Assembly: GCF_026151205.1 (NCBI RefSeq)
Contig: NC_087074.1
Location: 3,782,001 to 3,846,000 of the forward strand
Origin: Bolinopsis microptera
Lineage: Eukaryota; Ctenophora; Tentaculata; Lobata; Bolinopsidae
Length of the DNA: 64,000 nt
Reading direction: 5' to 3'
Shown: piece after piece, positions 1 to 41,243 of the stretch
Position numbering within the stretch: the first letter of the stretch is position 1
Layout of the letters: the number at the start of each line of letters is the position of its first letter
Notes under the pieces: model-generated
Databases searched by the model: none
Told to the model about the DNA's origin: nothing
Seen by the model: the letters and a program-made list of their open reading frames with translations, nothing else
Made by a program: the position numbers and the translations under genes

Positions 1-835
1 ACTTAACTGGTTCGTAACACGCACTAACTGGTCCACAACAAGTGCTAAACTTGTTCATCGCACGAACTAATTGGCTTCCAATACGGGGTGTGGGCAGATC
101 ATAACATCCACCAGTAACCCAGTTTTTAAACTGTCCACACTTTTACACACCTCCACCCAAAACAATCAGTGCTCTCAGTACTCTCAAAAAGCACCTACCT
201 TGGTTTCACGTCAACGTAAACTGTAAGTGTGGATTTAAAAAACTGAACAAATCATCAACTCTGGAGAGTAGCACCCTCTCAGCTCTGGAGACTGTTCAAA
301 CAAGGAAGAATACAAACTTAGCACGACAAACATCAAACTGCAAATATCAAGAACTTATATAATATAAGTCTTTAAGTCAGAAGTTGAGACCATTTTTTCT
401 GGTACACGCAGCCATTAAACCTCGCCCAGTAAAACACGCCAGCTGAGTTCAAGGTGATCGTAACTGACTTATATTATATAAGTTCTTGATATTTGCAGTT
501 TGATTTTTGTCGTGCTAAGTTTGTATTCATACCCTTGATTTAACAGTCTCCAGAGCTAGAGGGTGGCTACGCTCCAGAGATATGATTTTTCAGTTTTTTA
601 AATACACATACAGTACAGTGACGTGAAACCAAGGTAGTGCTTAGAGTCTGAGATCACTGAATTGTTTTGGCGTGGATGTGTGTAAAATGTGCGACAGTTA
701 AACTGGTTACTGTGGATGTTTGATCACCACACCCCGTTATGGAGCCAATTAGTTCGGATATGAACAGTTAGCCACTTGTTGTGGACCAGTTATTGCGTGT
801 ACGAAAGTTTAAGACGAATCGGTATAACGAACCAT
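1..835. mobile_element. Fold-back element with ~370-bp inverted arms
   Basis: Positions 1-372 read as the reverse complement of about 463-835, with small indels; about 90 bases lie between. Matching landmarks are ACACCCCGT near 85 and ACACCCCGTTAT near 731, ACGTGAAACCAAGGTAG (right) with its complement near 197-213, and CTTATATTATATAAG flanking the loop. No ORF of note lies inside. The outer arm ends (AACTGGT / ACCAGTTA) are the same motif as the tandem array that follows, so the element appears to end in repeats of its own terminus, as fold-back transposons do. The left end may continue before base 1. The inverted structure is seen directly; the mobile-element class is inferred. Confidence 0.75.
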
Positions 836-1460
836 TAGCACGGGCCATGAAGCGGTCTACTTGGTTTTGAACCAGTTAGCACGTGATACAAACCAGTTGA
901 GCACGTGGGAAATAAATCAGTTAGAACATGTCTATAAACCAGTTAGCACTTGTTATAAACCCAGTTTGCACTGTTTGTAAACCAGTTGCAAGTCATACAA
1001 ACCATTAGCACATGTTTAGATACACCAGTTTAGCACGTGATATAAACAGTTTGCACGTGTTTGAACCCAGTTATACGGGTTGTTAAAACCCATTAACACT
1101 CATACAAACCAGTTAGCATGTGTTGTAAACCAGTTTAGACTGTTAATAAACCAGTAGCACATGTTATAAACCAGTTAGCACATGTTTATAACCACCCATT
1201 AGCACCGTGATTATAAACCAGTTAGTACAGTTTGTAAACCAAAGGTTAACACTCATAAGAAACCATTAGCACGCTGTTGTAAAACCAGTTAGCACGTGTT
1301 TTAACCCAGTTAGCACGTGTATAACCATTAGCACAAGTTAAACCAGTTAGCACATGTTATACCCAGTTAGCACGTGATATAAACCATTGCACGTGTTTAA
1401 ACATTAAAAAGTGCTGTAAACTATTAGCACGTCATACAAACCATCGTGCTTTTATAATAA
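836..1460. repeat. Degenerate ~22-bp minisatellite (ACCAGTTAGCACGTG)
   Basis: About 28 imperfect copies of a unit with core ACCAGTTAGCACGTG and a TTATAA spacer, many with one- or two-base losses. The core matches the ends of the adjacent fold-back element. No coding potential. Confidence 0.8.
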
Positions 1461-2050
1461 ACTGCGAACCATTGACTCGCTCCAAATACGGACGGTCAGT
1501 CTGTGGATTGTACACGTGGTCAAATATTCATGGTATGCAGGATTTGTAACAAGCATTTACATCTAAATATTTCTTCTCTGTCGGTTTCAACGGACTATAG
1601 AGTCAACGTGGCGGCTCTAATCGATCCCCACTGCAGGTTACAAATTAATGGTATGAGCACCCTCACACGCATCTGAGCTGTATTATATTCGATTTTAAGA
1701 TTGTTTTTGTCGCTGTTTTCCCATCACTCCTGCTATCATGCCCCTGTAATGTAACAACTGATCCGTTAAACCGTATCAATTTTCATTCAGCTGGACCAAT
1801 TTAATATTTGTTAAAGTACCACTCCTTTGCTGGCTAATGATTTCATGTGAAATATAATTATAATATGCGTTTTGTGGCTGTTGCACCCGATTCAACTAGG
1901 ACACAAAAAGTTCCGGCATATCAGTATTCAGAATCAGTAATCAGTATTAATTAGTAAATTTCAATAATTTCAGTATTTAGAATCAAGTAATCAGGAACAT
2001 AATCAGCAATCAGTAATAGATTACCCGGAGTAAATAAGTAGCCTGCTAAT
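1461..2050. other. No gene recognised
   Basis: Mixed-composition DNA without a convincing ORF or splice-framed exon. Near 1920-2010 there are short irregular repeats of the motif AATCAGTA. Confidence 0.5.
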
Positions 2051-2255
2051 TAGAACCAGGCGCCCTTGGTAACTGTAACGTTATTAAACCAGGAGCCCTT
2101 GTGTAACTGTAACGTTATTAGAACCAGGACCCTTGGTAACGTAACGTTATTAGAACCAGGAGCCCTTGTGTAACTGTAACGTAATAGAAACCAGGAGCCC
2201 TTGGTAACTGTTACGTTATAGAACAGGAGCCCTTGTGAAACTGTAACGTTTATGT
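2051..2255. repeat. ~35-bp tandem repeat, about 6 units
   Basis: Units contain AACCAGGAGCCCTTG followed by TAACTGTAACGTTA. The 72-codon minus-strand ORF across it only reflects the period and is not called a gene. Confidence 0.8.
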
Positions 2256-2336
2256 ATGCGATCCTCAATAACGGCTTGAAAACGATTATCTGGTTGGAAA
2301 ATTTGAAATGATTGTTTCACCGAAATATAAGTATAA

Positions 2337-3269
2337 CCCCTCCGGGATAGAATAATATTCTGTAATCCCGGCTCCCGCTAAATAGGTATTCTGATAATCC
2401 CGGCTCCCGCTGTTAGTTTTTTCCCGCCTGAATAAATAACCCCGCACAGCTATTATAATCCCGCCCCGCTAATTTGGCTCAACAATATTTGTTTTGTTTT
2501 TGAACAGTCCATGAGAATTTCAACCCGCGTACTGTCACGTGTTTTGATACTGTATCACGCGACTAACTACTACGACGACTCTAATGGTAAAAAATGTCCC
2601 GTGACCTATGGCTACGTAAAACAATAAATACATTCGATCTACGTATCGTTCTAAATTGCAGGCGCTGGCAAAACTCCAGACACACTGCATACATTACTTA
2701 AACCTACATTAATTGGACCATTCCAAAGCCTGTCTCACGGTTACATTTGATTTTGTTCCGGTTCGGTATTTTTGTCGGTGTTTGATATAAGCCCATGTAA
2801 ATTATAGTCCGTCTACTTTGATAAATTCATGACACGATTATCATTATTAGCTTTTATCGCTTGCCAGGCTTAACTCGACGCCCCTTATCGATATTCATAT
2901 TCATTCAAACGTTCTGACTGAGGAAAAATGTTTAAGAATATAACGCAATTTCAAGTCATAGTACCTTAGTTTATAATTTTATTTGTTAGTCCCCCAAATC
3001 CATTTCATTTTCCATAATGATCTCATATAGCTATATTTAAGAGTAAAATGTCAAATTTGTTGTCCTAGCACTAACCCGGAGGGGTTTATAACAAATAACA
3101 CCTGCACGCTTAAGTTACTATTAAATAACCCCTCGTGGCTAAAGCCACGTCGGGGTTATTGTCATAATAATCCCTCGTGCTTCGCGCACTCGAAATTATT
3201 ATAAACTTTTCCCGCGCGTCGCGGGAAAAATTGAAATATAATCCCTGGCGCAATGCCGGGGTATGAGTG
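2337..3269 (+). mobile_element. Non-autonomous Crypton-like relic
   Basis: The left end (CCCCTCCGGGATAGAAT, then repeated AATCCCGGCTCCCGCT) and the right end (CCCGCGCGTCGCGGG hairpin, then AATCCCTGG..GCCGGGG) match the two ends of the full element at 37326-39712 in the same orientation. The bases just inside the left end also match the leader of the recombinase gene. The recombinase itself is absent: about 2720-3000 is unrelated or too decayed to recognise. Flanks are GTATAA (2331-2336) and TTATAA (3270-3275), like the TTATAA repeats flanking the full copies. At 933 bp it would depend on a recombinase supplied elsewhere. Confidence 0.75.
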
Positions 3270-3275
3270 TTATAA

Positions 3276-4919
3276 GTTTTCCGAGAAAGTTTCAGACTTT
3301 TCATAATATGGCCTCCTACTTCCTATCTGTAGCACTACAACTTTAAGACATGAGCCAGTGAGCCTACAGTAGTTTTGGTCGATGCGGTCATTACTGCAGA
3401 ACCTCTAGTGATTATACCTACAGTCCTCGTTTCATTAAGGTACTGATTTTCGTGATTTGCAATAGAACTCTTGTGTACTTTTAGAAGTATTCATACGGTC
3501 GAACTTTTTCTTCTGATTATATCGATTTATACGTTAAAAGTAGACTACCAAGTAATTTTGTTTTCTAAAACCCGTCAGATTTTCTCTGTTATGATACAAG
3601 ACCTATTCCGGGTGCCTGCAGAGAACAGCCACGCCCATTTTTGTCCCACTTATGCCAAATCTGAAACATCGCTAACATGCTCAAAACCCAGATTTTAGTT
3701 GCGTACTTGTTGCTGGTGGAGCGGGTGATCCCTCGAACTCATTAATGAATTTTCATTAAGAATTGGATCAAAAAATAACTGAGTTCTGAGCCTAAAACCA
3801 TATGCCCATTAAATTGCATACGCAAAAATCTGGGAATGAGCCCCCCCCCCCGGCCCCCCCTTAAGATTATTTGAAAAAATTGTTATAACCAGCCAATACA
3901 TGAGTTATGAAGCGTAAAAAGTGAGCCTGGTAACCACCCTGGAAAGTGGTTCCCAGGTACCACCCCTGTAACCACTGAAACTAATGATAACCAATTAGGA
4001 GTAGTGGACAACTTCCTTTCCTGTAAACTTCAGCCCAGAGTTAAAGAGTTGTCTGTATTTTGTAGATAGAGTTAAGTTTGGTTTGGTTTGTACTTGGTTT
4101 AAAGAATTAGCGGTGCAACTCTCGGTTGGTCAGTGTATCGTGTTTTCTATTATTGGATCCAATATAAGTATTTCGGATATGGGTAATTATATAATTAGTA
4201 TTGCTGTACAACTAACTACAGTAATAAGTATATTACGAGTCTGAAAATTGGAGAACCTTATTATTGACATTGAGACTATTATACATATTATGGACTTATT
4301 GTGTTCACTTTACTCTCACCCCGTATTTACACGAACCAAATACTTGCAGTCCACACACCACGGACCTGAATTCTTAAGGGGGGGGGGGGGGGGGGGGGGG
4401 GCCGGGGGGCCGGGGGGCAATTCCAAAATTTGCCGTAAAAATCAGAATTTTGGCCGCAAATTGTTTTTTGGGGCCTAAATTAATTTGGACAAAAACTAAT
4501 AGGTAGTACTAAGCAGTACAAGCAGTGTGACTAAGTTGATCAAGTTGTGAGTAAGTTTATCATAATCATGTAAATGTTATTAAAATCATGTCATTTTGTT
4601 CTTCATTAAATATATGTAAAATATGTAAATGCGACCAAGCATATTATATATTATATTTGCTCAACTCAATTCGTGATCATTCCTTTCTAGCCCCCACAGT
4701 CCTGGTTTACCAAGCCATACAAACCTCCCACGACACACACACACAATAACACACTACCTGGCAGCATGCGGTGGGTGAGTATATACTGTAACTATATAAT
4801 AGGTACACCTGTCATCATACTATACAAGTACGGTCCATTACTCTGTATCTCTAATTGTTGTATTATAATACATCTCATACCCCCTGCAGACTTACAACCA
4901 CCTTCATCTTTCTTAATTA
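3276..4919. other. Non-coding, with two solo G/C-tract transposon ends
   Basis: No gene recognised. A C-tract broken by GG and followed by TTAAG lies at 3841-3865, and CTTAAG followed by a run of about 24 G and GGCCGGGGGG at 4375-4420. Both resemble the ends of the TTAA-flanked element at 24302-24873 and may be solo termini. A possible exon with a good acceptor (cctttctag) and donor (GG|GTGAGTAT) lies at about 4691-4773. It is open in two frames, but neither product was recognised. Confidence 0.4.
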
Positions 4920-5030
4920 CTTGTCCTTTAAATTCACACTCGTTGTTGTAGATTACACTCGTTGTTGAAGATTACACTCCTTTGGTTGTAGATTACATTC
5001 CTTGTTGATAATACACCTACTTGTTTTGTG
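4920..5030. repeat. ~18-bp tandem repeat
   Basis: Four to five copies of a unit like TTGTTGTAGATTACACTC, diverging to the right. Confidence 0.7.
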
Positions 5031-5745
5031 CCCTAATCGCCCCTTTGTGCAGTGCTCCTATCCCTGCTTAGCAGCTGTATTCGACTTTCGCTATCTCGAG
5101 CAAATTTTCCGGGCATTGACCGTTTATTAGTTTATTGGGTGGCAGTTATCGTGTTCGTCGTATTGAAATACTGTTAGTTACAATTGCTGTGAAAGGACAA
5201 CATTTTTGCAGTTCCTAATTGCCGATACTAGTCGAGAATTGTAGCATACGTCCTAGAACGACTTTTTCGTGTCCTGATTCATTGGATTTTCTTAATTCCT
5301 TATTGAGCAAATATAGTCTTAATCTACAGAATAATTTGATTAGAACCGCTTACATTTCATAATGATCAGACTATGTTGAGAATATAAATTCAATTATTCA
5401 GAGCTGTGTAGATTATTCAGTAAGCTCGCAAAATCATGAAGCACCATTAATTAAATCCTCTTACCAAGTACATAACAGGTGTTCCGAAACCTCGGTACGT
5501 TTTTAAACATCAGTCCAATTATTATTTATAAAAGAACATCCAGCTACATTTTTAGTCCATTCACATTAAATGAATTAGAGCGCCGATTTGTTAACTTTAA
5601 CCTAATTTATCATGGAAACAAATAAACCAGAATGCTGAGAATACTAAAATATGGCGTAGAATCACGACCCAGATGACCATTGTCTGCTCCAGCGGGATAT
5701 TCATCTTCAAAATTGGGCTCATCATAATAGGATGGTGTTACACCC
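5031..5745. other. No gene recognised
   Basis: AT-rich sequence with stops in all frames. I see no repeat or splice-framed exon. Confidence 0.4.
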
Positions 5746-6520
5746 TTCAAAAAAAGTCACGTTCTTTTCTATTACCCGAGCATATTCACATGAATTCGTA
5801 GTGTTAATTTTGTGTACCAATGAATGAAAACGGCTAACGAATTCACAGACATTGAAAAAGATCTTGGAGTCATATCAATAGTAAGTTAGATTGGTCACAT
5901 CACTGTGATATGATATACTCAAGGCTATCAGAGGTTAGCTTCTAAAAAGAACATGATACTTTACCAAAACACTAAAAAACGTCGGGCTGTCTATCTATCT
6001 CAGTGTTAGAAGTCATTTCGAACACGCACAATTGTCTGGCGGCCTCATTCAGAAACCTCGGTGGAGAAACTTGAATCGATACAAAAAAGAGGTATCACGT
6101 GGATCCTTAATGATATTTACTTGAGCCCTAGGGACAAAAAAAAGGTATTTCATAGCGTGTAAGGAACAAATATCCCTTCCACTCTCGTAAGTTTGATTAC
6201 AAGGATAAATTACAATTTTCATAATAATTTTTTAAGACATGTCAGTTGGGACATTTCCACCATACTTTCCGACGTTTCATGGAAGTAGGTTAAGGCGATC
6301 ACATCCTAGACGATCTCGCGTATGATCAGTGGACATTTCTCCTCAAGTTCCACAAACCTTACCGTCAAGCCAGACCAGATGTTCAGGCATATCTAAGTCT
6401 TACTTTTACAGATCACACATACTTTGGAATAAACTCCCTTATTGAATTAAGGGAAAATCTCAAGACCATCCGTTTCTTAAAACCCATTTAATTAAGTACC
6501 CTGGACGTTCTACACGGACC
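5746..6520 (+). pseudogene. LINE reverse-transcriptase C-terminal relic
   Basis: Broken frames encode the C-terminal part of a Jockey/CR1-type LINE ORF2: a DLGVIS-like motif (about 5860), then RSHFEH (about 6010), then VEKLESIQKRGITWIL (about 6063-6112). The last matches FVAIQKRAIKWING of the intact LINE at 45757-48561, so the families are related. Several frameshifts and stops make it non-functional. Boundaries are approximate. Confidence 0.65.
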
Positions 6521-6932
6521 ATATAACATCTCTGACAGTTAAAAAATTTACCTAAAGACAATATTGTCTAAATTATAAATTGATAAAAAGTATAAGGTTT
6601 AAAATAAAATATGTTAAAAAGTGTGTTTTATAATTATGATTATGGTACATTGTTATTTAATTTGTACATTGTTATTTATTAGAATTTATATTTTAATGGG
6701 GCTGGTAACCTTATTAGTTCTAGGAATAAACCTAGCATGCCTTGGTTGCAGCATCGCTTCACTTATAGGTGCCATTTAGGGCCCGATGAATTGCTACTGA
6801 TCAGTTTACTGGTCAACTGGTTTTTTCGGTGTCCCTTATCTTGTTTACAACTCGGTCACTTGCAAGGCATGTAAAGGCATCGGCTGATATTTTCTTTGAA
6901 ATAAAATGATGTATATGTGAACAATTTGAAAG

Positions 6933-7131
6933 TTTATTGATAAAAAAAAATGTTTGTTCCAACAGTAGCAATGTCCCAGACAACAGACTCGATTAGTTTC
7001 TTGCTTCCAATTCTACGGCCAAACCTTTACTTTGCTTCCTTGACCCTTTTAGCATGAGCAATCTTTTGTTCGGGGAACCATGCAATAGCTGAATAAACAT
7101 TCTGTGGTCGTTGATGGAGTCCTTTATGTTT
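6933..7131 (-). CDS. Probable 3' terminal exon, unidentified gene
   Basis: On the minus strand an open frame runs from a possible acceptor (ACTATAAG, ending at 7132) through 34 codons to TAA at 7027-7029. The peptide is basic and ends in KIAHAKRVKEAK. Downstream in transcript direction an AATAAA signal lies at 6938-6933, giving a 3'UTR of about 90 bases. Basic tail, stop and poly(A) signal together look like the end of a real mRNA. I do not recognise the family and found no upstream exon, and the acceptor lacks a strong pyrimidine tract. It could also be a retrocopy or a chance ORF. Confidence 0.35.
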
Positions 7132-7139
7132 CTTATAGT

Positions 7140-8595
7140 ATTTGTTATAACTTAGTACTTTATTATTTTTCTTTTAATTCCTTTCATCTTACTGTCATGG
7201 TATGTTTATTAATTAACATAATGATGCTCGACAATTCAAAACGTAAATGAATATAGCGTGGTTGCCGTGACAAGTGGAAATGAGAATGATCAGAGCTAAA
7301 CTGCGCTGCATCGTCAAGAAATTAATTTTTTTTTTTTCAACGTCACTTCAATATTGTTTACTTGTTAGAACCGCTCAAGGTTAGGTTCGTGTTTTTGGTA
7401 TATTTCTGTACCTTAGAACCGCACAGAATTAATAAACGCTTTATCTAGTCTGTGTATTTTTCGATTATTCGAGAATTTTTTTATACTGCAGCGAGGCCAA
7501 AGGCCAACAGTTGTGAGTCAAATTCGAGGAGTATGACTGTGTGTGTAAATATAAACGAGTATCGTTTATTAGTTTTATGGGCACAGCAAAATTACAAACT
7601 CTGTAACTTATAAACGATCTCGTGTTTCGATTAGCACACAAACGACAAACATAATTTTCATAGGTAGTTTTCAGTTATGTTACAATAGAAACATTCTAGC
7701 TGGATAAGAGATAAATAAAGCGTCTCCTTTGAAAAAATGTTACATGGCAGAATCCTCCAAAAGGATTTGTCTGCGACAACTGCGTATTAACTTTGATAAA
7801 TGTAATATAGAAGTTACCCCCTTCAACATTCACGACGCGCACCATTATTTCTTATCGATTTTTAATCTTGGTTCCCTTTTTGTGTAGTAATATTGTATCT
7901 CACCGCCCGCTGCCAACAGCCTCTTTTTCCGTAATTTATCTTATCTTTGATAAACGCATGGTCGATTACTCTTAGGCGCGCTGGCCGCTGGGCGTTCTGC
8001 TTGTTATTTGAAACCTCTGATTAAAGTTATAATTAATGACACTATTTATCTCAGCTTTGGATCAAACGTTATGTGAGTATGAATCAAACTCATGATATCC
8101 GGGGTATGAAAGCAATATAACATGGAATAATCCCTCACAACTACCCACAATCTACCCATGCTCCATCCTCAAGTTGAGTACTCGTCCACTGCAAACACTC
8201 AAAGTCTCTAATACAACAACTCCCTGGCTGTGCACCCAAGCCGTTTTTTCAAGATGAACCGATCGCTCCTTGATTGTTTTTTCTACCAAGATTTTGATGC
8301 AGATTAATGCTGCTGTCCATGTTCTAGAATTGTGGTGATTTTATGCAAATGTCATATTTTAGAATCGCTCCCATCACTGTGAATAACAGATCACATCGCC
8401 TCCCAGGGTTACACCAAATCGTATACACTCTACAAGTACTGCAGTAGACCTCCGTCCTATCTATTAGCGACACTTATTTGTAATAAACATAATCGCAGTC
8501 TTGTTTACGACAACTTCACCGGAAATATGCTACCAGTCGTAAGAGCATTAAGGTGTTTGTCTTTGTGAAGTTATCCGTCAACCACTAGAAGTAAG
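7140..8595. other. No gene recognised
   Basis: AT-rich. A frame open for about 62 codons at 8383-8571 (plus) lacks an early ATG and a clear splice context. A T-run lies near 7327. Confidence 0.4.
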
Positions 8596-8760
8596 CAACT
8601 CGTAATACAATACAGTGTCTACAGTATACACAGTGTATACAATGTATAGCAATACAGTTTAATGTTTATACATAGTGTATACACAGTGTATACAATGTAT
8701 TGCAATACAGTATACACTGCACAGTGTATTGTATACACAGTATATACACAGTGGTATTAG
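8596..8760. repeat. Short palindromic GTATAC-rich repeat cluster
   Basis: Irregular copies of ACAGTGTATACAATGTAT and related motifs. It is self-complementary and probably a slippage-prone simple repeat. Confidence 0.7.
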
Positions 8761-8823
8761 ATTTAGAGACTGTATCCACATATAAACTGACTTGGTAACC
8801 GTCTACCAAGACAGAGACTAAAG

Positions 8824-8945
8824 TTTATTTCATTACTTCATTGCGCTTCCTTGCGTTTCATCTCGCGCAACCTGCTTCTCTTCGTCTTGTGGGAGAACTT
8901 CTGATACGCTGATTTGAATTCATTTTTAAGAAGATCAAAGCCACA
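8824..8945 (-). CDS. Probable 3' terminal exon, unidentified gene
   Basis: On the minus strand a good acceptor (cttctgctatctttag, ending at 8946) opens a 35-codon frame in phase 0 to TGA at 8838-8840. The peptide begins CGFDLLKNEF and ends in a very basic tail (KTKRSRLREMKRKEAQ). An AATAAA signal lies at 8829-8824, only about 9 bases past the stop. Acceptor, charged C-terminus and poly(A) signal support a genuine last exon. No family recognised; the upstream exon was not found. Confidence 0.45.
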
Positions 8946-9545
8946 CTAAAGATAGCAGAAGGATCTATACACAGCTGCGTTTGCACCTGTATAGTTATAC
9001 TATCTGATCTGTGGTGCTGTCCTCCTGCAAGAATCAGATTATCTCAGATAACAGAGCGCGTGTTAGCCGCTCAAATAATGGCATACGGGCGTACGTTTAA
9101 ACTTTAATATTGATTCACACCAACATTTGTCCTTGCACAATCAGCTGCATGATCTAGTTTTAAGCACGTTACCACCCATGTCAAATTTGCTCTATATTTT
9201 ATTGCATGGTTGGAACAATCAAACATAATTAACCGCTGTTAGACGCAATGAGACGCTGTAACCACCGGTGACAAGCACTTAATGAGCTGTAAATACCTAT
9301 TGAGCTTAATTTAATTAATTAAAAATAGTTAATTAGAGCTTTCAATCATGGTTCGTCAGTAGAGTTTAATTATTGCTCTTGGAAGTTAGCCATGAATATA
9401 CCTAGTTTTGTCTCCTCACATTTGGATTAGTGCTCAGTGACTCATCTAAAACAGTGGTGACCTTTTCTCACCCGACTAGTTAAGTTTTAGGTCACGTGTT
9501 TAAGTGTCTCGATACTCCTTAGTGCTCAATTTTGTGTTGGACAGT

Positions 9546-9645
9546 TTTGATAATGCTGTGGAAAAAATTTTTACATTGCAATGTAACCAATTTTTCCGAA
9601 AAATTTGGTTTAATTGCAATGTAACCAATTTTTCCACAGAGTCGC
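9546..9645. repeat. Compact ~95-bp imperfect palindrome
   Basis: Outer arms TGTGGAAAAA and TTTTTCCACA, each followed inward by ACATTGCAAT or its complement; the centre AATTTTTCCGAAAAATT is itself palindromic. It resembles a miniature TIR element, but no target duplication was identified. Confidence 0.65.
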
Positions 9646-9649
9646 CATA

Positions 9650-10035
9650 ATATGAAACCACCGACGCTTACCCACGCATTAGCCCCGACCCTTGATCACT
9701 CGACCATATGTTACCAGCAGAAGCTACCCCGAAACTGAGCAACTCGAGGTGGGGTTAACATATGTTAAACAGCCAAAGTAACCCAACGCATGTAGCCCCG
9801 ACCCTTGAGTAACTCGACTGGTAACATATGTTAACCATCCGAAGCTACCCAACGCATGTAGCCCCGACCTTGAGTAACTCGACTGATTAACATATGTTAA
9901 CCATCCCGGAAGCTACCAAGCATGTAACCCCGACCCTTGAACAACTCGACAGTTAACATATGTGTAACCACCGTAGCTACCCACGCATGTAGCCCCGACC
10001 CTTGGAGTAACTCGACTGGTTAACATATGTTTCAC
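9650..10035. repeat. ~63-bp tandem repeat, about 6 units
   Basis: Units contain GCATGTAGCCCCGACCCTTG and GTTAACATATGTTAACCA, the latter near-palindromic. Copies differ by small indels. Confidence 0.85.
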
Positions 10036-10530
10036 CAGCCTAAGCAAAGGAACAAATGTAATATAAGGAGTTTAACGACACATTATGAAAACATACAGAA
10101 CATCGTTTCTTCTACATTAAGTTGAGGTGTTATACTGTAAAATTAAAACCCTGTCTGCTGTAATAAAGTTATAAGTTCAATTATATACGTAGCTCGCTGT
10201 AAAGCCTCCCCATCATTAGCCAACTATATTACATAAGCGACTTTTAGTGTGATGGGGATCATGACTCTTTATTTACCGTTAATTATAGTGTTAATTATAG
10301 TTTTACCGTACTAAATACTACTTTTCAATGCTCACTAATGACCTAGTCTCTAAGATCACTGAAAATGACACGTTCTTTAAAATGTTAATTTATTACTCTT
10401 CTCCGGGGACAACTCAAAATAACATCATCTCCACATTCTGTTGTTTTGAAGTTTTAAGAATGTAGTAAAGTATGTATATTGTACGTACTTTTCCATTGTA
10501 AGTACGGCACTCATTAGTAAAGCTGAGTTA
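10036..10530. other. No gene recognised
   Basis: AT-rich spacer between two satellite arrays. I see no ORF or structured repeat. Confidence 0.4.
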
Positions 10531-11859: not shown

Positions 11860-11937
11860 CAGCAACAACAATATAACTAACTAGTAACTGTATCTCGTTT
11901 CAGCAACAACAATATAACCAACTGTATCTTGTTTCAG
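11860..11937 (+). promoter_or_regulatory. Tandemly duplicated 3' splice site before the first WASF exon found
   Basis: Two copies of a 34-41-base segment starting CAACAACAATATAAC and ending GTTTCAG lie in tandem, so two equivalent acceptors end at 11903 and 11937. A third AG (GAGCTCAG) precedes them. The downstream acceptor fits the WASF frame. Using the upstream one would add 34 bases and shift the frame. Confidence 0.65.
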
Positions 11938-14900
11938 GCAAGTAGAACTGCTATAAAAGCTCGCAATATGGAGAGGCGAGTACAGACTCTAGCAGATACA
12001 ATCTCCCAGAGACAACACTATGTCTATAAAACTGGTAAATTCTTCATAATATTCTCTCAATACTAACCGTATAAAACTGGTAAATTCTTCATAATATTCT
12101 CTCAATACTAACCGTATAAAACTGGTAAATTATTCATAATATTCTCTTAGTACTAACCGTATAAAACTGGTAAATTATTCATAATATTCTCTTAATACTA
12201 ACCGTATAAAACTGGTAAATTCTTCATAATATTCTCTCAATACTAACCGTATAAAACTGGTAAATTATTCATAATATTCTCTCAATACTAACTAAAAAAC
12301 TCACCTGTTTAAGAAAAGTTATGGCTTGAGCGATTAATTGACAATATAACTTTATGTTATTTGCTTAAACTGTTTAGGATGCAACCTAATGTCATGATCT
12401 TTTTGAACTTATTAGCAATTAGACTGTTAGCTCGCTTCATAAGCATGTCATCTTCGTTCCAAAACTTTTTATGTCCTATGCATACACTCCTGGATAGTTA
12501 TCTTGATCAAGTATCTTTGTTGTTTCACACAATAGAGCATAAGTTTTGTGGTTTATCCACTGGGCTTAGAGTTTGTGTTTAAGCTACCAAATTTTATTAT
12601 TATTATTATTATAAAACTGGTAAATAATTCATAATATTCTCTTAATACTAACTGTATAAAACTGGTAAATAATTCATAATATTCTCTCAATACTAACCGT
12701 ATTAAACTGGTAAATTATTCATAATATTCTCTCAATACTAACCGTATAAAACTGGTAAATTATTCATAATATTCTCTCAATTATACTAACTGTATAAAAC
12801 TGGTAAATTATTCATAAAATTCTCTCAATACTAACCGTATAAAACTGGTAAATTATTCATAATATTCTCTCAATACTAACCGTATTAAACTGGTAAATTA
12901 TTCATAAAATTCTCTCAATACTAACCGTATAAAACTGGTAAATTATTCATAATATTCTCTCAATTATACTAACTGTATAAAACTGGTAAATTATTCATAA
13001 AATTCTCTCAATACTAACCGTATAAAACTGGTAAATTATTCATAATATTCTCTCAATACTAACCGTATAAAACTGGTAAATTATTCATAATATTCTCCCA
13101 ATACTAACCGTATAAAACTGGTAAATTCTTCATAATATTCTCTCAATACTAACCGTATAAAACTGGTAAATTATTCATAATATTCTCTCAATACTAACCG
13201 TATAAAACAGGTAAATTATTCATAATATTCTCTCAATACTAACCGTATAAAACTGGTAAATTATTCATAATATTCTCCCAATACTAACCGTATAAAACTG
13301 GTAAATTATTCATAATATTCTCTTAATACTAACCGTATAAAACTGGTAAATTATTCATAATATTCTCTTAGTACTAACCGTATAAAACTGGTAAATTATT
13401 CATAATATTCTCTTAATACTAACCGTATAAAACTGGTAAATTCTTCATAATATTCTCTTAATACTAACTGTATAAAACTGGTAAATTATTCATAATATTC
13501 TCTCAATACTAACTGTATAAAACTGGTAAATTATTCATAATATTCTCTCAATACTAACTGTATAAAACTGGTAAATTATTCATAATATTCTCTCAATACT
13601 AACCGTATAAAACTGGTAAATTATTCATAATATTCTCTCAATACTAACTGTATAAAACTGGTAAATTATTCATAATATTCTCTCAATACTAACTGTATAA
13701 AACTGGTAAATTATTCATAATATTCTCTCGTTACTAACCGTATAAAACTGGTATATTATTCATAATATTCTCTCAATACTAACCGTATAAAACTGGTAAA
13801 TTATTCATAATATTCTCTCAATACTAACCGTATAAAACTGGTAAATTATTCATAATATTCTCTTAATACTAACCGTATAAAACTGGTAAATTATTCATAA
13901 TATTCTCTTAATACTAACCGTATAAAACTGGTAAATTATTCATAATATTCTCTTAATACTAACCGTATAAAACTCGTAATGACCATTAAATTTGTCAAAT
14001 ATTTCAAATTTTGTGTTTTATCCATTCAAGTTTAATGTGCCTAACCAAATTGAATTGTTTTACTTTTCTCCGTCTTAAATTAGATTTAATATTGATGGAA
14101 AATGTAAAATTGTGCGGTCTGCGTGTACTAAGCTTAGTAATTTTGAAATTATCCCCCAAGCTTTGAGATTTCTCAATATAATTATATTATATATATGTAC
14201 TGCGGACATGTATTTTTAGTGTAAATATTTCAACAGAGGCTTGGAATCTAATTTGTGGCACGAGCTTGGTTTGCTTGATATGTGAGAAAATATGCTTAGA
14301 TAAAATACATGGTATTAAGGTAAGCATCTAGCAGCTACCCTGTAGCCTCCTAGTAACCACCTAGTAACCACCTAGTAACCACCTAGTAACCACCTAGTAA
14401 CCACCTAGTAACCACCTAGTTACCACCTAGTAACCACCTAGTAACCACCTAGTAACCACCTAGTAACCTCCTAGTAACCACCTAGTAACCACCTAGTAAC
14501 CACCTAGTAACCAGGTCTAGTAACCACCTAGTAACCACCTTCTAACCACCTTGTAACCACCTAGTAACCACCTAGTAACCACCATACCTTGTAAAAGTAA
14601 ACATCGTATCATGACATTTGATACAGCTCGACAGTGTCTGTACACAATGTACAATGTACATTGTACAGTGTATATTTGTGTTAAATTATCTCCCCAGTAC
14701 AACTCTAGTTCCTATGACCTACATCATGTCGTTATCTTATAAATCAGGTAATGTGTAAGGCTTCACTGGCTCAACAAACACAGTGTCTTTAAACAAAGTG
14801 TGCTCCATTCTCTACTCTATTTACAAAGTAGTAGGATTGAATGTCCTGTATTTAGTAAATTTCTCGTGACAATGTTTGAAGCCGTGGGCTCATGAGGTAG

Positions 14901-17900
14901 CTTAAGTCATTTCAAGCTCTCAATCAAAACGTCTACATTGGACTCGTGTGTCACTGGAAGAAATTAAGAGTATAAGTTTTGTCTTATTCTGAGACGACAC
15001 TGTCAGCTATTCATACACTGGAAACTATCTATACTATATTATATATATATTCTGACAAGTTTTCAGGTTTCTATTTTTAGTTCGAAAACAGTAAACATTT
15101 TACGCCCAATCTGAGCGTTGTGACCCACTGAGGCAAGTGGTAAAGTTCAGAATTGTCAAGATTGGCAACTGTGGCTCCAACCAATAGAGCAATAACATAA
15201 CACGGTAGTAACCAGCTAGTAACCAGCTAGTAACCAACTAGGAACCACCTAGTAACCAGCTAGTAACCAACTAGGAACCACCCAGTAACCACCTAGTAAC
15301 CACCTAGTAACCACGTCGTGATCACCTAGTAATCGCCTAGTAACCTCCTAGTAACCTCCTAGTTACCACATCGTCATCACCTAGTAACCACCCAGTAACC
15401 ACCTAGTAACCACCTAGTAACCACCTAGTAACCACCTAGTAACCACCCAGTAACCACGTCGTAATCACCTAGTAACCACCCAGTAACCACCTAGTAACCA
15501 CCTAGTAACCACATCCTCGTTCAGACTTAAACAACCACAACATGGAGGTGGGCAAGTTCAGACCTAACACAGTAGTGGACCAGAATGTGGTGATAAAGGA
15601 CAACAGGACGCCCTGTGTAAAGGAGAGACACTCAGCTGCAGACCTCACTCCTGCTCTCATTGTAAGTTAATATACATTTACCAAACCCCCATTAACCAGG
15701 CTCCATTTACCAGGCCCCAATTTACCAGACCCCCATTTACCAGGCACCCATTTACCAGGCCCCCATTTACCAGGCCTCCATTTACCAGGCCACCATTTAC
15801 CAGGCCCCCATTCACCAGGCCTCCATTTACCAGACCCCCAATTACCAGACCCCCAATTACCAGGCCCCCATTTGTGTGTTACATTGAGACCCTGGTTTAA
15901 TGGAATTTCCTATCGAAACAATTTGGCAAAATCGTCTCCATGAAATTCCCGGTAAACCAGAGTTTTGCTGTAATGATAAGGGACTAATTATACTTCTTCC
16001 CGTCTGCAGTACCGTTGACCGAAAATATAATTTATTTCAATTTCAAAATTCCCTCATTTATGGAACTGTTTACGAGTGCTCGTAAATGTCATTCTGACAG
16101 GTTCAGTAATTACCGTTTTTGAATGTAAGGCTTGCTGTATGAGGTCACAATGTAACAGTAGTAGATACTAGTAGTAGATTTAGCGAGATGTTAACAGTAA
16201 ATGATGGTGATTTGCGCTGTAATTAGCAGTTTTACTAATTAATTAATAAACCGGGACGGTTAGCTTAGTGCTGGAGAGTGGAGCTGCATTTAAACTCACA
16301 TTATAATGCCCAGTTCTGCGAATCCTTTCAACTTTAATGGCCATTTTAGGGATAATTCGACTGTGCAATCTTGAATCTCATAAGTCAAAGTTAAATGCTC
16401 GATACCTATACTGGTAAACTGCTTGAAGTGTAGTCATTCTCTGAATCTCTGCAGCTCAAAACTGGAATTCATATGATTTTACCGATAAATATAATGTATG
16501 GGGGGTGCATCAACAAATTGACGTCATGATTCGAAACTCAATGTTCTACACTTTAATGCAGTTGTAGGTAGTCGCCTTTGCAATTGGCTTATATAATTGG
16601 CTTATATAATTGGCTTATAATCGATATTAAAGTATGATTCCACAGAACAGTTAATGCATTTAGATCGTTTAACCGTTTAACATATATAATTGTACATTTG
16701 CCTAAACTGACTAACATTTAAAAGGTCTTCAAGAATGTGAGGGAGGATGGGAAGGACTGCACGACCCTGTACACTGATCCCCACTACTTTGGTCGGGTTT
16801 GGTTCAACCAGATGCAGAAAGCGTTCGAGGCCAACAAAAGGGTGAGCTCAAAACATTCTTGTAGTGATTTAATTAAGTTTAATTCGTATCATAGTGCATT
16901 ATATAGCAGATTTTTATATCAAAAAGTAATTTTAAAGATTATTTCTGTTGTTTCAATCTTCTAAGTTTGCTTTGTAGGGGTGTAATAAGAAAAAGTAAAC
17001 AAGGGTGTTCATATATATGCGTGTGATGGTATTCATCACAAAATCCAAAATTCATTCTAAATCGAATACACGTTACCAATCATTATGATTAAATCATCTG
17101 CTTTGAGTTTTAAACTTTAACAAAATCCAGAAGAAAAATTTTAAAATCTTCTCCTACAGAAAAATATATAAAATTGACTGCCGGAAAAGATTTCATCGAG
17201 TTTTAAACAGATACTATTTAATATTTGAAAGCATAAACACCGTCCCACTGAGGATCGTATGGTTCCATCCAGAACTTTCTGAAGAGATGGACCAGCTCAT
17301 TTCGCTCCAGCTTTCCACTCTTGTCAGTATCAGCTTTCTCGAAGAAGGTGTATGCAGCCTCCTGGGGTACATCAAAGGCTTTCATCATGGTCTTCAGCTC
17401 ATCGACATCGACAGTACCATCACCATCATCATCCAGGACATCGTAGTAAGAGTTAGAGAGGAGGGCAATTAAGGAGGGTTCTCCACGTCGTCCCCTTTCT
17501 CTCTCCGCTTCAGCGAAGACTCTGTTAGCCTCAACCCAGTCATCTCGATGGAGACCGTGCTCTAGGTCTACTCCTTTATGCCAGAAGAAAGTCTTGCATG
17601 CATGCCTCATCTTCTCAACCTGCTCATCAGTAGCGTTGACCAGCTGTCTCATTCTGTCGGGCCAGTACAGGACTTCATCCATCTCCATCCTCTCGTCACT
17701 GTCCAGATCGAAAGTGTCAAACCTCTTGTAGAGTCGGGACAACATCTTGGGGTGAAGGTCCTCGACATTGTACTGCCAGGTGTTACCCACGCTTCTTAAG
17801 TACTTGTAGCTTTCGTTGTTGGTCTCGTCGAGTCCTGGCATCTTGTTGGCCTGGTCACTTTAGCTACATAACATTTGGTTGTTAATTTTGTCAAAATAAA

Positions 17901-20900
17901 TTGTAATTTTCAATAAAATTAACCGGGAAAGAGATTGTGAACTAATTTTACACAATTTTAATATCAGAATATGCGAGAAGGTTAAATGCTTGGGAGGGGG
18001 GGGGGGGGAGCCAATGCTTCTTAGTTGCGACTAATGTTAAAAGTGAAATGGAAGATTAAGCTTAATTTTCATAGTTGGTCCGTACTATAGGGTACGTAAA
18101 AACAGCAGGGTACTTGCGGTACGAAAAATTGAATTTAGGGTACGTTAAGCTTTAAAATTGTTGACAAGACAGAACACATAGACACTACTGCTGAAGACAG
18201 TGAATCTGATAATGAGATGTCCATTGATTCCGCTTAATATCTTTAACTTTATCTTGATGATAAATTAAACATTTTAAACTTTTTAAAAACTCGTTTAAAT
18301 CGCGTGAAAATAGTGGAAAAATTCACGTCAGAAGTTTCAAAAGTACTCTTGCATACGGACGGCGAAACTCGAGGGTACGAACCAACTATGTTAATTTTAT
18401 TTTATCTTTGACTTGCTTGGTCGATTAAGAGTGATAAGACAATCAAACAACGTATTTTTGTTTTCAATTCAAATGTAACATTTGAGATGATAGTAAAGTA
18501 TAAGTCTAACATTCATTATCATACCCAAGTTAAGTGATGATTATAATTAATTACAAAACATTTCAATACTAAAATACAAGGTAAGTTTGATGTGAGTTTA
18601 AACTTTAGAAAACAAAATATCGAAAACAAAAAAAGGAAAGTTCCAAGATCGTTTACAGATCACGAATTCAAGTCCATTCCAGGTAAGATATCATCAAGTT
18701 CCAAGTGAATACGATCTAGTATTTGTAAGCGTAGACACCATCCCACTGGGGATCGTATGGCTCCATCCAGAACTTTCTGAAGAGATGGACCAGTTCAGGT
18801 CGCTCCAGCTTTCCGGTCTTGTCAGTATCACCCTTCTCGAAGAAGGTGTAGGCAGCCTCCTGGGGTACATCAAAGGCTTTCATCATTGTTTTGAGCTCTT
18901 CGACATCGACAGTACCATCACCACTATCATCCAGGACATCGTAGTAAGAGTTGGAGAGGAGGGCAATCAAAGATCCTTCTCCACGTCGTTCCCTTTCTCT
19001 CTCGGCTTCAGCGAAGACTCTGTTAGCTTCAACCCAGTCCTCTCGTGCGAGACCGGTGTCTCGGTTTACTCCTTTGTGGAAGAAGAAGGTGTCGCAGGCA
19101 GCTCTCATCTTCTCAATCTGTTCGTCAGAAGCGTTGACCAGCTGTCTCATTCTGTCGGGCCAGTACATAATCTCGTCCATGCTCATCTTGCCGTCAGTGT
19201 CGAGATCGAAAGTGTCGAACCTCTTGTACAGACGTTCCAACATCTTGGGGTGAAGGTCCTCGACATTGTACTTCCAGGTGTTTCCGACACTTCTCAGGTA
19301 TCTGTAGCTTTCGTTGTTGGTCTCGTCGAGTCCTGGCATCTTTGATAACGTTTCCTTGAGCTAAACTGGAGAATATTATTTATCAGCAAAATTGTTATGA
19401 TACTTATCAGATATGACTGGTAACTGAATGACAAGTCAACAAGAGAAAGAAATCTTATAAAGTTTCAATAGTATGCCGAGGACTGCTAAAGTTTCCTTCC
19501 TTAAATGCAAAATTTCGAATGAAATATGGGACTTATGGGATTTATCAACATAGTTTGCAATAAAACTTAGTACAATTGTCACGTTAAGACCCGGAGGGCG
19601 AATAAGCCGTGGAGGAGAATCACCCTCGCATCAAATCCAAGTCATCATGATCAGCATGATCATGAAACTTCAACCTTGACTGAAGAAATGGACAGCAGCT
19701 CTGTTTATATACTGCAAAAAATTCATTATCGTAATTGGTCATTAATCGTATTAATTATTGATTAATTAAATTGGATACCTAAATTGAACTCTCAATTAAC
19801 ACTTCCGGAACTGATTTCTGGAGCTGATTATAGAATGAAGGGCTGGTGAACAGGCTTGGTAACTTTTTGGACAACTTTTATTCGATTAATTTAATCAGTT
19901 ATCATTAATTGGTTTCAATTAATACGATAAACTGAGATCGTCTAATTCTTAAAAATAATAGTATAGAAACCCAAGCAGAGCAGTATTTATAATTAGATTT
20001 TTATTAACATTACAGAAGAGTTATGATAAAGACTAATAATATAAGTATAATTCACAACGCTGGGTTATTCCACTAAATTAAATAAACCTGGAAGCGAACC
20101 TTCGTCTTTTACTATTCCATTCAAGAGGGCTGTAGCTTCACATTACCTCAAGGCTCACCTCAATAAAAAGTTCGATTCCAGTATGTTTGTCGTTTGATGG
20201 TGTTCAACAAAACCCCTTTCTCAAACACACCATAAATTGGGGTCAATATTATCCCAAAAGGCCGACCCAGAACATGAAAGACGAGACAATAATATCAGAA
20301 GCTGATAACAATTCTCTCAGGCTCGTACAAAAAAGAAGAATAAGAAACAAAACGTGAAGAAGGAACCGCGACCCGTCATTATAAAGGAGTACAAGGTTGA
20401 TGCTTTAGGTTCGTGTACATTTACAATTTACGTTCAAATTACAAAAGAAGTTTATTAGAATTGTTGCAGGAAAGACTTCCAAAGAGAACGGTACTTGTTT
20501 AAACACATCAAGCCATTATTTCAATTCTTTAAAATAATTAGTTTACAATTTATACGTCTATTTTACAGCTTTTCAGTTAATGAAGATTGTGTAATTCGTA
20601 TAATTCACCGAAATTATTGAACGGATTTTTCACTAGATCAGCTCACTTGGCAATATTTATTTACCCTAAATTTGACCTTCATAACTACTCTTTACATTTA
20701 CAAAAATTACCTACCATGTTAATTTCTCTCCTGACGGTGAGGCAGGGGGGGGGGGGCAATGGCATTTAAAAAAGTTCATTCATGCTACCCTGATCATTAT
20801 GAGCCGAAAATATTTTTCGGGACCTAGCCCTCGAGAATTTTTCCTGAAAATTAATGAAATTTCCGGCCAAGCACCTTCTTAACTACTTACTATAACCTGA

Positions 20901-37325: not shown

Positions 37326-39712
37326 ACCCCTCCGGGATAGAATAAGATTCTGATAATCCCGGCTCCCGCTAAATAGATTTTGATAATCCCGCCTCCCGCT
37401 GTTAGTTTTTTCCCGCTGAATGAATAACCCCGGCATAGTTTGTATAATCCCGTCCCGCTATTTGGTTCGACCCGGTTCAGTTATTTAACAGATATTAATT
37501 TGTCTCTCATGAATAAGGCTAGTTTTAATCTTCCCACGAGAATATCTGTTCGGCGCTTAATTAATGTCACGTGTCCTGATGACACGTATCACGTGACCTC
37601 CCACTACGACGCGCATTCGTCAAAAATAACACGTGACCTATAACCTAACGTAATAAATATAGATCTGCTTGGCACGTGCCAGGAGTTGGCAAAGTTCCAG
37701 CAAGCTCCTTGTTATTGAATATCTTGGACCAGTTCCAAAACCTGTTCATTAGTTTCGTTTGACCGTTATTGCGCATGGATCTTAGTTCAGCCTCAGAGGA
37801 GGATAACCCCTTATTTGATGTTAGAGTGGAGGAACTTCTCCAAAACCGTACACCAGCTTCAACCATCAAAGTGAACAATTGGGCAGAAAACAAATTTGAT
37901 ACCTGGCTGGAAACCACGAGCTTTCCCTATCTATCCTTTGAAGATGTTGACTACGACAGATTGAATTACATAATGGAGCGCTTTCTTTGCGACGTTGGGG
38001 AGAAATTGAAATACCGCTCAATGCATTCCGTTATAACTGCCTTGAATAGGAAGCTCAAGGAAAGGTCCGTCGACCAAGACCTTTTTGTGACCAAACGGTA
38101 CGAGCGGTTCAGGCGAGTGTATGATGGGTGGCTGAAAGAAAAACAGGCGTCTGATATCAGTTCTCCAACTAATAAGGCTGGTTACATCACAGAGGCTGAG
38201 GAAGAAAGATTGTGGGATAGTGGAGTATTCGGGATCAGCACACCTATTCAGCTGCTAACCACAGTAATATTTCTGTTGTGCAAAATATTCACGCTCCGTG
38301 GTGGAGATTAGTTGAAACAACTTAAATCCGGTGACATCACGATCACAAAGCTTAAAGACAGGTGTGAAGTTTGGTACAGAGAACGCAGGTCAAAGAATAA
38401 ACAACCGGGTTTGAAGAGCATTAACAAAGAACGGAAACAGGTGCAGCATTTTGATCCAATCAACGAGTCATACTCGAGATCGTTTTCCTTTGTTTACCAA
38501 GTGTTTCTGAGTAAATCTCACCCCAAAGTGTCCGATCCTGAGTCGAAACTGCAACTCCTTCAACATTGTTTAACTTTGAAAAAATGTAAGAACTTACAGG
38601 AAGCTAAAGTGTGGTTCTGTAACCGGAGAGTAGTAGGGAAGAATTACCCAAAAGAACTATTCGAAAAAGCGATGGAAGAAGCCAAAATAGATCACAAAGG
38701 AAGGAACCTCTCCCTGCGATCTATCAGACCCTCCTCAATACACAGGATGGCAAAGAATAACGTTCACCCCGAAAAGATGAGGAAAAGAACCGGTCACTCT
38801 TCCATCTCTGCCCTGAACCAGTACACACGGTAAAAATAAAAATATTATAATTAACCCAGTTTAACTAAGTTTTTGAAATTTCAGCTAGTTAATTTCAACC
38901 CTAAAATGTCAATTATTTACAATGCTTAAGTTTAACTTAATACTATGATTGAGCTCAATTAATTTTTTTTAAATTCCAGATTCGAACAAGAGCTATCAGC
39001 AGAAGAAATTTCAACCATTCTCGCATCCCCACCGTGCAGACTGAAGGTGTTTGAATTCCGACTACCCAATCGTCGAGATATTCCAAAACCCAGCATGCAA
39101 ACTTGTTTCCTCCTGCTAATTACTTGTTTGCTATTTAAAGTAGCCTTTTTCTGATAACAGACTCCAGATTTGATGTATTACATCTGTTACCTTGTTGGTT
39201 TTAATTCTACATATCGATGAACCGAGATCTTGGACAATCCTAAATTCAAATAATTGTTTATTTTGACTTTTACTGATAACTTGTTTGCTAATGAAAGTAG
39301 CCTTTTTCAGACTACAGAATCCAGATTTTGTGAATTAAATCGATTACCTTATTGGTTCTATAAATTCTATTTATCTAATTTTATATACTTCTATCTGACT
39401 AATTCTAATGAATTTCAATATACGGCTATTACTTCTTCAATTCCATTTCGAATAATCATGATGATTACCTCCAATAACAAGAATTAAGAGTAAAATATAA
39501 AATGTAATGGTCCTAGCACTAACCCGGAGGGGTTTATAACACATAACACCGGCAAGCTTAAGTTATATTAAAATAACCCCTCGTGCTAAAGCACCTCGGG
39601 GTTATTTTCATAATAATCCCTCGTGCTTCGCACTCGAAATTATTATCAATTTTTCCCGCGCGTCGCGGGAAAAATTGAAATATAATCCCTGCGCATGCCG
39701 GGGTTATGTGTG
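37326..39712 (+). mobile_element. Full-length Crypton-like tyrosine-recombinase element, inner copy
   Basis: 2,387 bp between TTATAA repeats. The left end carries three AATCCCG..CCCGCT repeats (37330-37470), then the recombinase frame (37775-38833), then a non-coding 3' part. The right end (39570-39712) is a row of hairpins: AATAACCCC/GGGGTTATT, a GTGC/GCAC stem, and the near-perfect CAATTTTTCCCGCG/CGCGGGAAAAATTG. It has no terminal inverted repeats in the DDE-transposon sense. Short identical flanks and a single tyrosine recombinase fit site-specific integration of a circle, as proposed for Cryptons. Confidence 0.75.
37775..38833 (+). pseudogene. Tyrosine recombinase, inner copy, in-frame TAG
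   Basis: About 351 codons interrupted by one TAG at 38309-38311. The C-terminal half matches the Crypton/DUF3504 recombinase fold: IFTLRGGD (catalytic Arg I), then SIRPSSIHRMAKNNV, RTGHSSISAL and the nucleophile Tyr in NQYTR. TAG falls directly after LRGGD, where relatives have a Glu-like residue before a leucine (LKQLKSGDI continues normally). The His of the usual HxxR box appears to be Arg (RSIR). The N-terminal half (about residues 1-150) would be the helical core-binding domain. The same TAG is in the outer copy, so it predates the nesting. Either a helper recombinase is used, the stop is read through, or the lineage is dead. Confidence 0.8.
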
Positions 39713-39729
39713 TTATAATATTTTTATTT

Positions 39730-40788
39730 TTACCGTGTGTACTGGTTCAGGGCAGAGATGGAAGAGTGACCGGTTCTTTTCCTCATCTTTTCGGGGTGAA
39801 CGTTATTCTTTGCCATCCTGTGTATTGAGGAGGGTCTGATAGATCGCAGGGAGAGGTTCCTTCCTTTGTGATCTATTTTGGCTTCTTCCATCGCTTTTTC
39901 GAATAGTTCTTTTGGGTAATTCTTCCCTACTACTCTCCGGTTACAGAACCACACTTTAGCTTCCTGTAAGTTCTTACATTTTTTCAAAGTTAAACAATGT
40001 TGAAGGAGTTGCAGTTTCGACTCAGGATCGGACACTTTGGGGTGAGATTTACTCAGAAACACTTGGTAAACAAAGGAAAACGATCTCGAGTATGACTCGT
40101 TGATTGGATCAAAATGCTGCACCTGTTTCCGTTCTTTGTTAATGCTCTTCAAACCCGGTTGTTTATTCTTTGACCTGCGTTCTCTGTACCAAACTTCACA
40201 CCTGTCTTTAAGCTTTGTGATCGTGATGTCACCGGATTTAAGTTGTTTCAACTAATCTCCACCACGGAGCGTGAATATTTTGCACAACAGAAATATTACT
40301 GTGGTTAGCAGCTGAATAGGTGTGCTGATCCCGAATACTCCACTATCCCACAATCTTTCTTCCTCAGCCTCTGTGATGTAACCAGCCTTATTAGTTGGAG
40401 AACTGATATCAGACGCCTGTTTTTCTTTCAGCCACCCATCATACACTCGCCTGAACCGCTCGTACCGTTTGGTCACAAAAAGGTCTTGGTCGACGGACCT
40501 TTCCTTGAGCTTCCTATTCAAGGCAGTTATAACGGAATGCATTGAGCGGTATTTCAATTTCTCCCCAACGTCGCAAAGAAAGCGCTCCATTATGTAATTC
40601 AATCTGTCGTAGTCAACATCTTCAAAGGATAGATAGGGAAAGCTCGTGGTTTCCAGCCAGGTATCAAATTTGTTTTCTGCCCAATTGTTCACTTTGATGG
40701 TTGAAGCTGGTGTACGGTTTTGGAGAAGTTCCTCCACTCTAACATCAAATAAGGGGTTATCCTCCTCTGAGGCTGAACTAAGATCCAT
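39730..40788 (-). pseudogene. Tyrosine recombinase, outer copy, same in-frame TAG
   Basis: Inverted near-identical copy of the recombinase at 37775-38833; the predicted protein is identical, including the TAG (40254-40252) after LRGGD and the substituted HxxR box. It belongs to the outer element, and its 3' end is cut off from its own hairpin end by the inner insertion at 39713. Confidence 0.8.
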
Positions 40789-41243
40789 GCGCAATAACGG
40801 TCAAACGAAACTAATGAACAGGTTTTGGAACTGGTCCAAGATATTCAATAACAAGGAGCTTGCTGGAACTTTGCCAACTCCTGGCACGTGCCAAGCAGAT
40901 CTATATTTCTTACGTTAGGTTATAGGTCACGTGTTATTTTTGACGAATGCGCGTCGTAGTGGGAGGTCACGTGATACGTGTCATCAGGACACGTGACATT
41001 AATTAAGCGCCGAACAGATATTCTCGTGGGAAGATTAAAACTAGCCTTATTCATGAGAGACAAATTAATATCTGTTAAATAACTGAACCGGGTCGAACCA
41101 AATAGCGGGACGGGATTATACAAACTATGCCGGGGTTATTCATTCAGCGGGAAAAAACTAACAGCGGGAGGCGGGATTATCAAAATCTATTTAGCGGGAG
41201 CCGGGATTATCATAATCTTATTCTATCCCGGAGGGGTTTATAA

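Follow-up and report, generated by a model that had tools for sequence, protein, structure and literature searches.

The window analysed here, 64,000 nucleotides of contig NC_087074.1 of Bolinopsis microptera, carries on its forward strand part of a gene for a WASF-like actin regulator in which a long minisatellite straddles an exon–intron junction. Three exons are supported by alignment to WASF1: 11938–12034 (97 bp, ending in phase 1 with ...TATAAAACTG), 15525–15661, and 16725–16841, which carries a YTDPHYF motif. They splice in phase (1, then 0) to give 116 residues, of which residues 6–112 match human WASF1 (3p8c_D, 65–170) over both junctions (E 1.9e-6), although a Pfam search with the same 116 amino acids returned no family. 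Because the spliced exons align to WASF1 through both junctions, the first unit of the minisatellite does contain a genuine WASF exon end and donor, as had been proposed in a sequence-only reading of this DNA, and this first donor (12034|12035) is presumably the one used in RNA. Upstream of the 97-bp exon the 3' splice-site region is duplicated (11860–11937), with two acceptors 34 nt apart, one whose AG ends at 11903 and another, the one in frame, whose AG ends at 11937. Proline-rich/WH2-like and acidic C-terminal coding stretches on the same strand at 30601–31260 probably belong to the same gene; the acidic tail is assigned by similarity to human WASF2. No 5' exons of the gene were found in the window among the matches listed. 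A second WASF-like gene lies about 634 kb away at C3:3159680; its matching exon ends in a candidate donor, GAGACTG|GTGAGT, also in phase 1, which hints at an ancient intron position, and the 45-bp array described below is absent from it within the 8 kb read.

The intron following the 97-bp exon (12035–15524) is 3490 bp long and holds three minisatellites, the largest of which had been described as a single run of about 36 copies at 12025–13980, each copy containing the exon end, the donor and TACTAAC. Tandem Repeats Finder and parsing into units confirm the copy number, the composition and the start at 12025, but the run is split within unit 6 by a dispersed-repeat segment at 12293–12609 and ends at 13979. 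The first block (12025–12292, units 1–6) has 6.0 copies of period 45 with 96% matches, and the second (12610–13979, units 7–36 and a partial 37th) has 30.3 copies with 95%. By parsing, the 36 complete units comprise 33 of exactly 45 bp, two of 48 bp and the interrupted one, with the 45-bp consensus TATAAAACTG-GTAAATTATTCATAATATTCTCTCAATACTAACCG. CTG|GTAAAT is present in 34 of the 36 units, the true donor counted, GTAAAT in 35 and TACTAAC in all 36, where CG or TG comes after it and closes the unit. Over the whole window, both strands counted, there are 58 copies of GGTAAAT where 14.0 are expected (some of them from another minisatellite, at 15676–15831) and 50 of TACTAAC where 11.4 are expected, with none of 100 shuffles as high in either case. 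The other two minisatellites of the intron have 11-bp units: CCTAGTAACCA at 14349–14583, which is common to the homologous intron described below, and TAGTAACCACC at 15206–15512, which stops 12 bp short of the acceptor at 15525 and whose consensus unit contains AG and TAAC.

Variation among the units is modest. The comparison covers the 33 units of exact length and so neither the interrupted unit nor the two of 48 bp. Among these, variable positions number 11 of 45, mean pairwise identity is 95.8%, and differences from unit 1 number 0–4 of 45 bases (unit 1 itself among those compared). Units 10–12 reappear as units 14–16, and such recurring groups mark ordinary minisatellite turnover. We also considered a satellite family present elsewhere in the genome. 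A two-unit query against 264.65 Mb in 232 contigs, a search whose match counts are lower bounds, gave at least 20 matches, 19 at the array locus and one at the homologous junction described below, and we rejected that possibility. The segment that interrupts unit 6 is a 317-bp forward-strand fragment of a dispersed family; a search in which 40 of 183 candidates were scored gave 41 matches, its own copy included, among the matches listed, and these lie on contigs C1 to C13 only. All 19 of the other copies printed run further 5' than the fragment, and a (TTA)n tail is common to the 8 copies printed on the same strand. It probably represents a LINE copy that lacks its 5' part and retains the 3' end with its (TTA)n tail, and the insertion would postdate the array.

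Close to the left edge of the window lies the centre of a near-palindromic inverted duplication, about 22 kb in size, of which the window forms one arm. Pieces of 819–22084 are matched in inverted orientation upstream, at 83–85% identity in 819–9237 and at about 92–98% in the matched pieces from 10047; in 9238–10046 no inverted-arm match over 150 bp was found. All three WASF exons recur in the other arm, 26 kb away; between the arms they differ at 3 of 351 bases (none of the 97 in the first exon), all silently, and encode an identical protein. At the end of the 97-bp exon the other arm has unit 1, matching at 45 of 45 bases, then 14 bases of a second unit, and then the same unique intron; the dispersed insert is absent, the acceptor of the 97-bp exon is single rather than duplicated, and the intron measures 1860 bp against 3490 bp. 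The unit number therefore changed at a functional donor, and it differs between two copies of one junction, be the arms paralogues or misplaced alleles. That the array had grown from the splice site into the intron was also part of the sequence-only reading; the change in number at the junction (36 units against one and 14 bases) bears this out, but the direction is our inference: expansion presumably took place here, and the other arm may instead have contracted. In the 22.8 kb beyond the third exon of that arm, the 3' WASF stretches were not seen among the matches listed.

The consequences for donor choice differ from those first envisaged. It had been suggested that the array could shift the donor in 45-base steps, and 45 is indeed a multiple of 3, yet an in-frame TAA within unit 1 (12064–12066, forward strand) truncates the product of every downstream donor, so none of them can lengthen the protein; read-through translation of the other arm ends at the same codon. 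The energy of U1 pairing is -5.3 kcal/mol at the true donor and likewise at each of the 33 copies identical to it, compared with -14.0 kcal/mol for an ideal donor, and of the intron's 221 GT sites 7 surpass the true donor in pairing strength. Concealment of the copies by RNA structure was considered and rejected, since RNA of four array units shows less structure than 198 of 200 shuffled sequences, which implies that the donor copies are exposed. With equal pairing and little structure, the sequence close to the donor cannot mark the correct one; from what is generally understood of exon definition, the exon body upstream of position -10, together with the order of synthesis, is likely to discriminate between them.

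The 3' splicing signals of the units are less telling. The statement that the canonical unit lacks AG, so that acceptors are not multiplied, is largely right, but three of the 36 units do contain AG (at 12149, 13209 and 13370), which gives three acceptor-like places. In unit 20 the AG lies 10 nt after TACTAAC and abuts the GT, forming a variant resembling a recursive splice site (CAG|GTAAAT, 13208–13216, forward strand) with stronger U1 pairing (-8.3 kcal/mol); units 3 and 23 carry TTCTCTTAG 36 nt downstream of a TACTAAC. A branch-point function for TACTAAC, or a meaning for the scarcity of AG, was not supported: an invariant TACTAAC has p 0.12, and AG is missing from 20% of shuffled units. 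Nor was constraint seen on the donor columns (p 0.54 for at most one donor position varying), and the TACTAAC copies are probably incidental. The stronger U1-pairing alternatives, the exposed copies and the acceptor-like AGs nevertheless make it plausible that some splicing would proceed from downstream donors.

We consider it likely that the array is a neutral minisatellite of the kind termed a 'mirage' in lancelets. Such an array could have started from an imperfect 14-bp direct repeat (TAT[A/T]AAACTGGTAA), the copies 45 bp apart, that spans the WASF exon–intron junction. Slippage or unequal exchange would then have amplified the unit bounded by this repeat into the intron, and multi-unit duplications and one dispersed-repeat insertion would have followed. 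Since the most upstream unit keeps the exon end and donor in place, the gene would still splice from unit 1, and the remaining donors would be silent or nearly so for want of an exon body upstream of base -10 and because the array has few acceptors. Repeat expansion appears to be a local habit, as minisatellites with a period of at least 10 form 38 arrays covering 10.5% of the surrounding 104 kb, the 45-bp array included; this cover and the duplicated acceptor suggest a repeat-prone neighbourhood rather than a splicing device. The one-unit homologue, the confinement of the matches found to the locus and its homologue, the block duplication, the absence of column constraint and the lancelet precedent support the mirage interpretation, whereas the equal U1 pairing, the seven GT sites with stronger pairing, the unstructured array RNA, the acceptor-like AGs in three units and a possible contraction of the other arm count against it.

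An alternative is that the array is a rheostat of unproductive splicing, in which the donor copies compete, the products of the losers read the TAA of unit 1 and are degraded or truncated, and the length of the array tunes WASF output. One donor nonamer shared by 34 of 36 units with equal U1 pairing, lying in unstructured RNA, and a stop codon that makes each donor shift unproductive are all in keeping with such a device. However, the array columns show no sign of constraint, the protein is unchanged in the one-unit arm, and regular splicing is reported for the lancelet precedent (PMC3087553), and we regard the rheostat as unlikely. Its length-variable form, in which dozens of donors compete, the losers share one stop and the number of units sets WASF output between individuals, we rate slightly lower again. 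Telescripting is much harder to credit; it would have the array serve as a dock for U1, whose many sites along this lengthy and AT-rich intron (12001–14000 has a GC fraction of 0.252) suppress premature cleavage and polyadenylation. Donor-like sites are numerous enough, but they pair with U1 far more weakly than an ideal donor, the homologue manages without an array, and here too constraint was not seen. We find least reason to believe in an intermediate of recursive splicing or intron gain, which would use unit 20 (TACTAAC, 10 nt, AG|GTAAAT) as a ratchet or units 3 and 23 as acceptors. The abutting AG and GT with stronger U1 pairing in unit 20, and the placement of TTCTCTTAG in two units, are suggestive of it, but the ratchet exists in one unit of 36 and the other acceptor type in two, and no pyrimidine tract precedes the AG of unit 20.

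A different kind of explanation is that the unit number, or the entire inverted duplication, is partly an artefact of assembly, for example through inverted haplotypes, so that the arms are alleles. Haplotig purging can leave some haplotigs behind, and the near-identity of the three exons, with silent differences only, would fit alleles, as would the 3' WASF exons that went unseen among the matches listed beyond the third exon of the other arm. For Bolinopsis, the published assembly did undergo such purging, and Iso-Seq and RNA-seq served in its annotation (PMC10232365). Both outer flanks nevertheless join the same arm end, which simple misplacement of a haplotype does not predict, and the identity between the arms ranges from about 83% to 98%. 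We judge an artefact improbable, less so than telescripting but more so than either form of rheostat, and the contrast of one unit with 36 holds even if the arms are alleles.

Our preferred interpretation, a neutral mirage-type minisatellite, rests partly on precedent. Mirages are tandem repeats that span exon–intron boundaries and carry copied splice signals, known from lancelet Adh3, globins (BflGb6 and BflGb9) and troponin C (PMC3087553), where the term is credited to Canestro et al. 2002; repeats in lancelet PGBD5 have been likened to them (PMC3902484). They affect either exon end, are unstable in length and are homogenised inside a cluster (PMC3087553; PMC3902484). Two haplotypes of BflGb6 have 6 and 3 units, and RT-PCR suggested that regular splicing is undisturbed (PMC3087553). 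For Adh3 a somatically unstable minisatellite, varying in length inside one animal, is reported. The Bolinopsis units likewise span a real boundary and carry copied splice signals, their number differs between homologues (paralogues or alleles), and block duplications with high mean identity indicate concerted evolution; the array thus has four of the five mirage features considered (boundary, signals, number difference and concerted evolution), and the fifth, undisturbed splicing, is predicted. It differs from the lancelet cases in its ctenophore host, in having 36 units where BflGb6 has 6 and 3, in the 10 exonic bases per unit, in the interruption by a dispersed repeat, and in that its regular splicing is a prediction. 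AG|GT, which would define an array of recursive splice sites, occurs in only one of the 36 units. Variable internal tandem repeats at exon–intron boundaries are also described in human segmental-duplication genes (PMC2812944), and new introns or alternative transcripts have been associated with some of them. There too the number of units differs between recently duplicated copies at the boundary, but the average is four units of 30 bp rather than 36 of 45 bp. A Caenorhabditis elegans minisatellite has been tied to multiple splicing decisions, with no copied splice sites in the available part of the report (PMC4039745). Among the open-access papers listed by our searches, none described such a boundary repeat from a ctenophore. 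Our best reading is that the array is a large, new case, in another phylum, of a phenomenon known from lancelets, which suggests that mirages are a by-product of minisatellite-rich genomes and not a lancelet trait.

The array is a natural test of donor choice, with 34 identical donor nonamers, the true donor included, in a coding gene, and the one-unit homologue on the same chromosome provides a ready control. The usual system for studying 5' splice-site choice among equals is the built minigene. If only the first donor is used, the deciding information must lie outside -10 to +35, in the exon body or the order of transcription; if others are used, the length of the array is a natural dose series. 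Should the rheostat prove true, the dependence of donor choice on copy number could be read from a single locus.

Other features lie near the array. Just past the third WASF exon are two mnemiopsin-like photoprotein ORFs on the reverse strand (17218–17859 and 18716–19360). The second matches mnemiopsin 1 (E 1.4e-128) and berovin (E 5.7e-120), in agreement with a ctenophore origin, and is the only one of the two with a structure match. A genome search for photoproteins gave 59 matches at E <=1e-20, many of them in regular tandem arrays on C1, C3, C5 and C13 with a spacing near 0.94–1.03 kb. In the other arm a photoprotein gene at C3:3763767–3764401 is split into two matches, one with an internal stop. 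Further along the window, two ORF pairs at 37763–38833 and 39730–40800 share their translations and are inverted relative to each other; the first matches Pfam DUF3504 (E 2.5e-9), and the pairs resemble a mobile element present in inverted copies.
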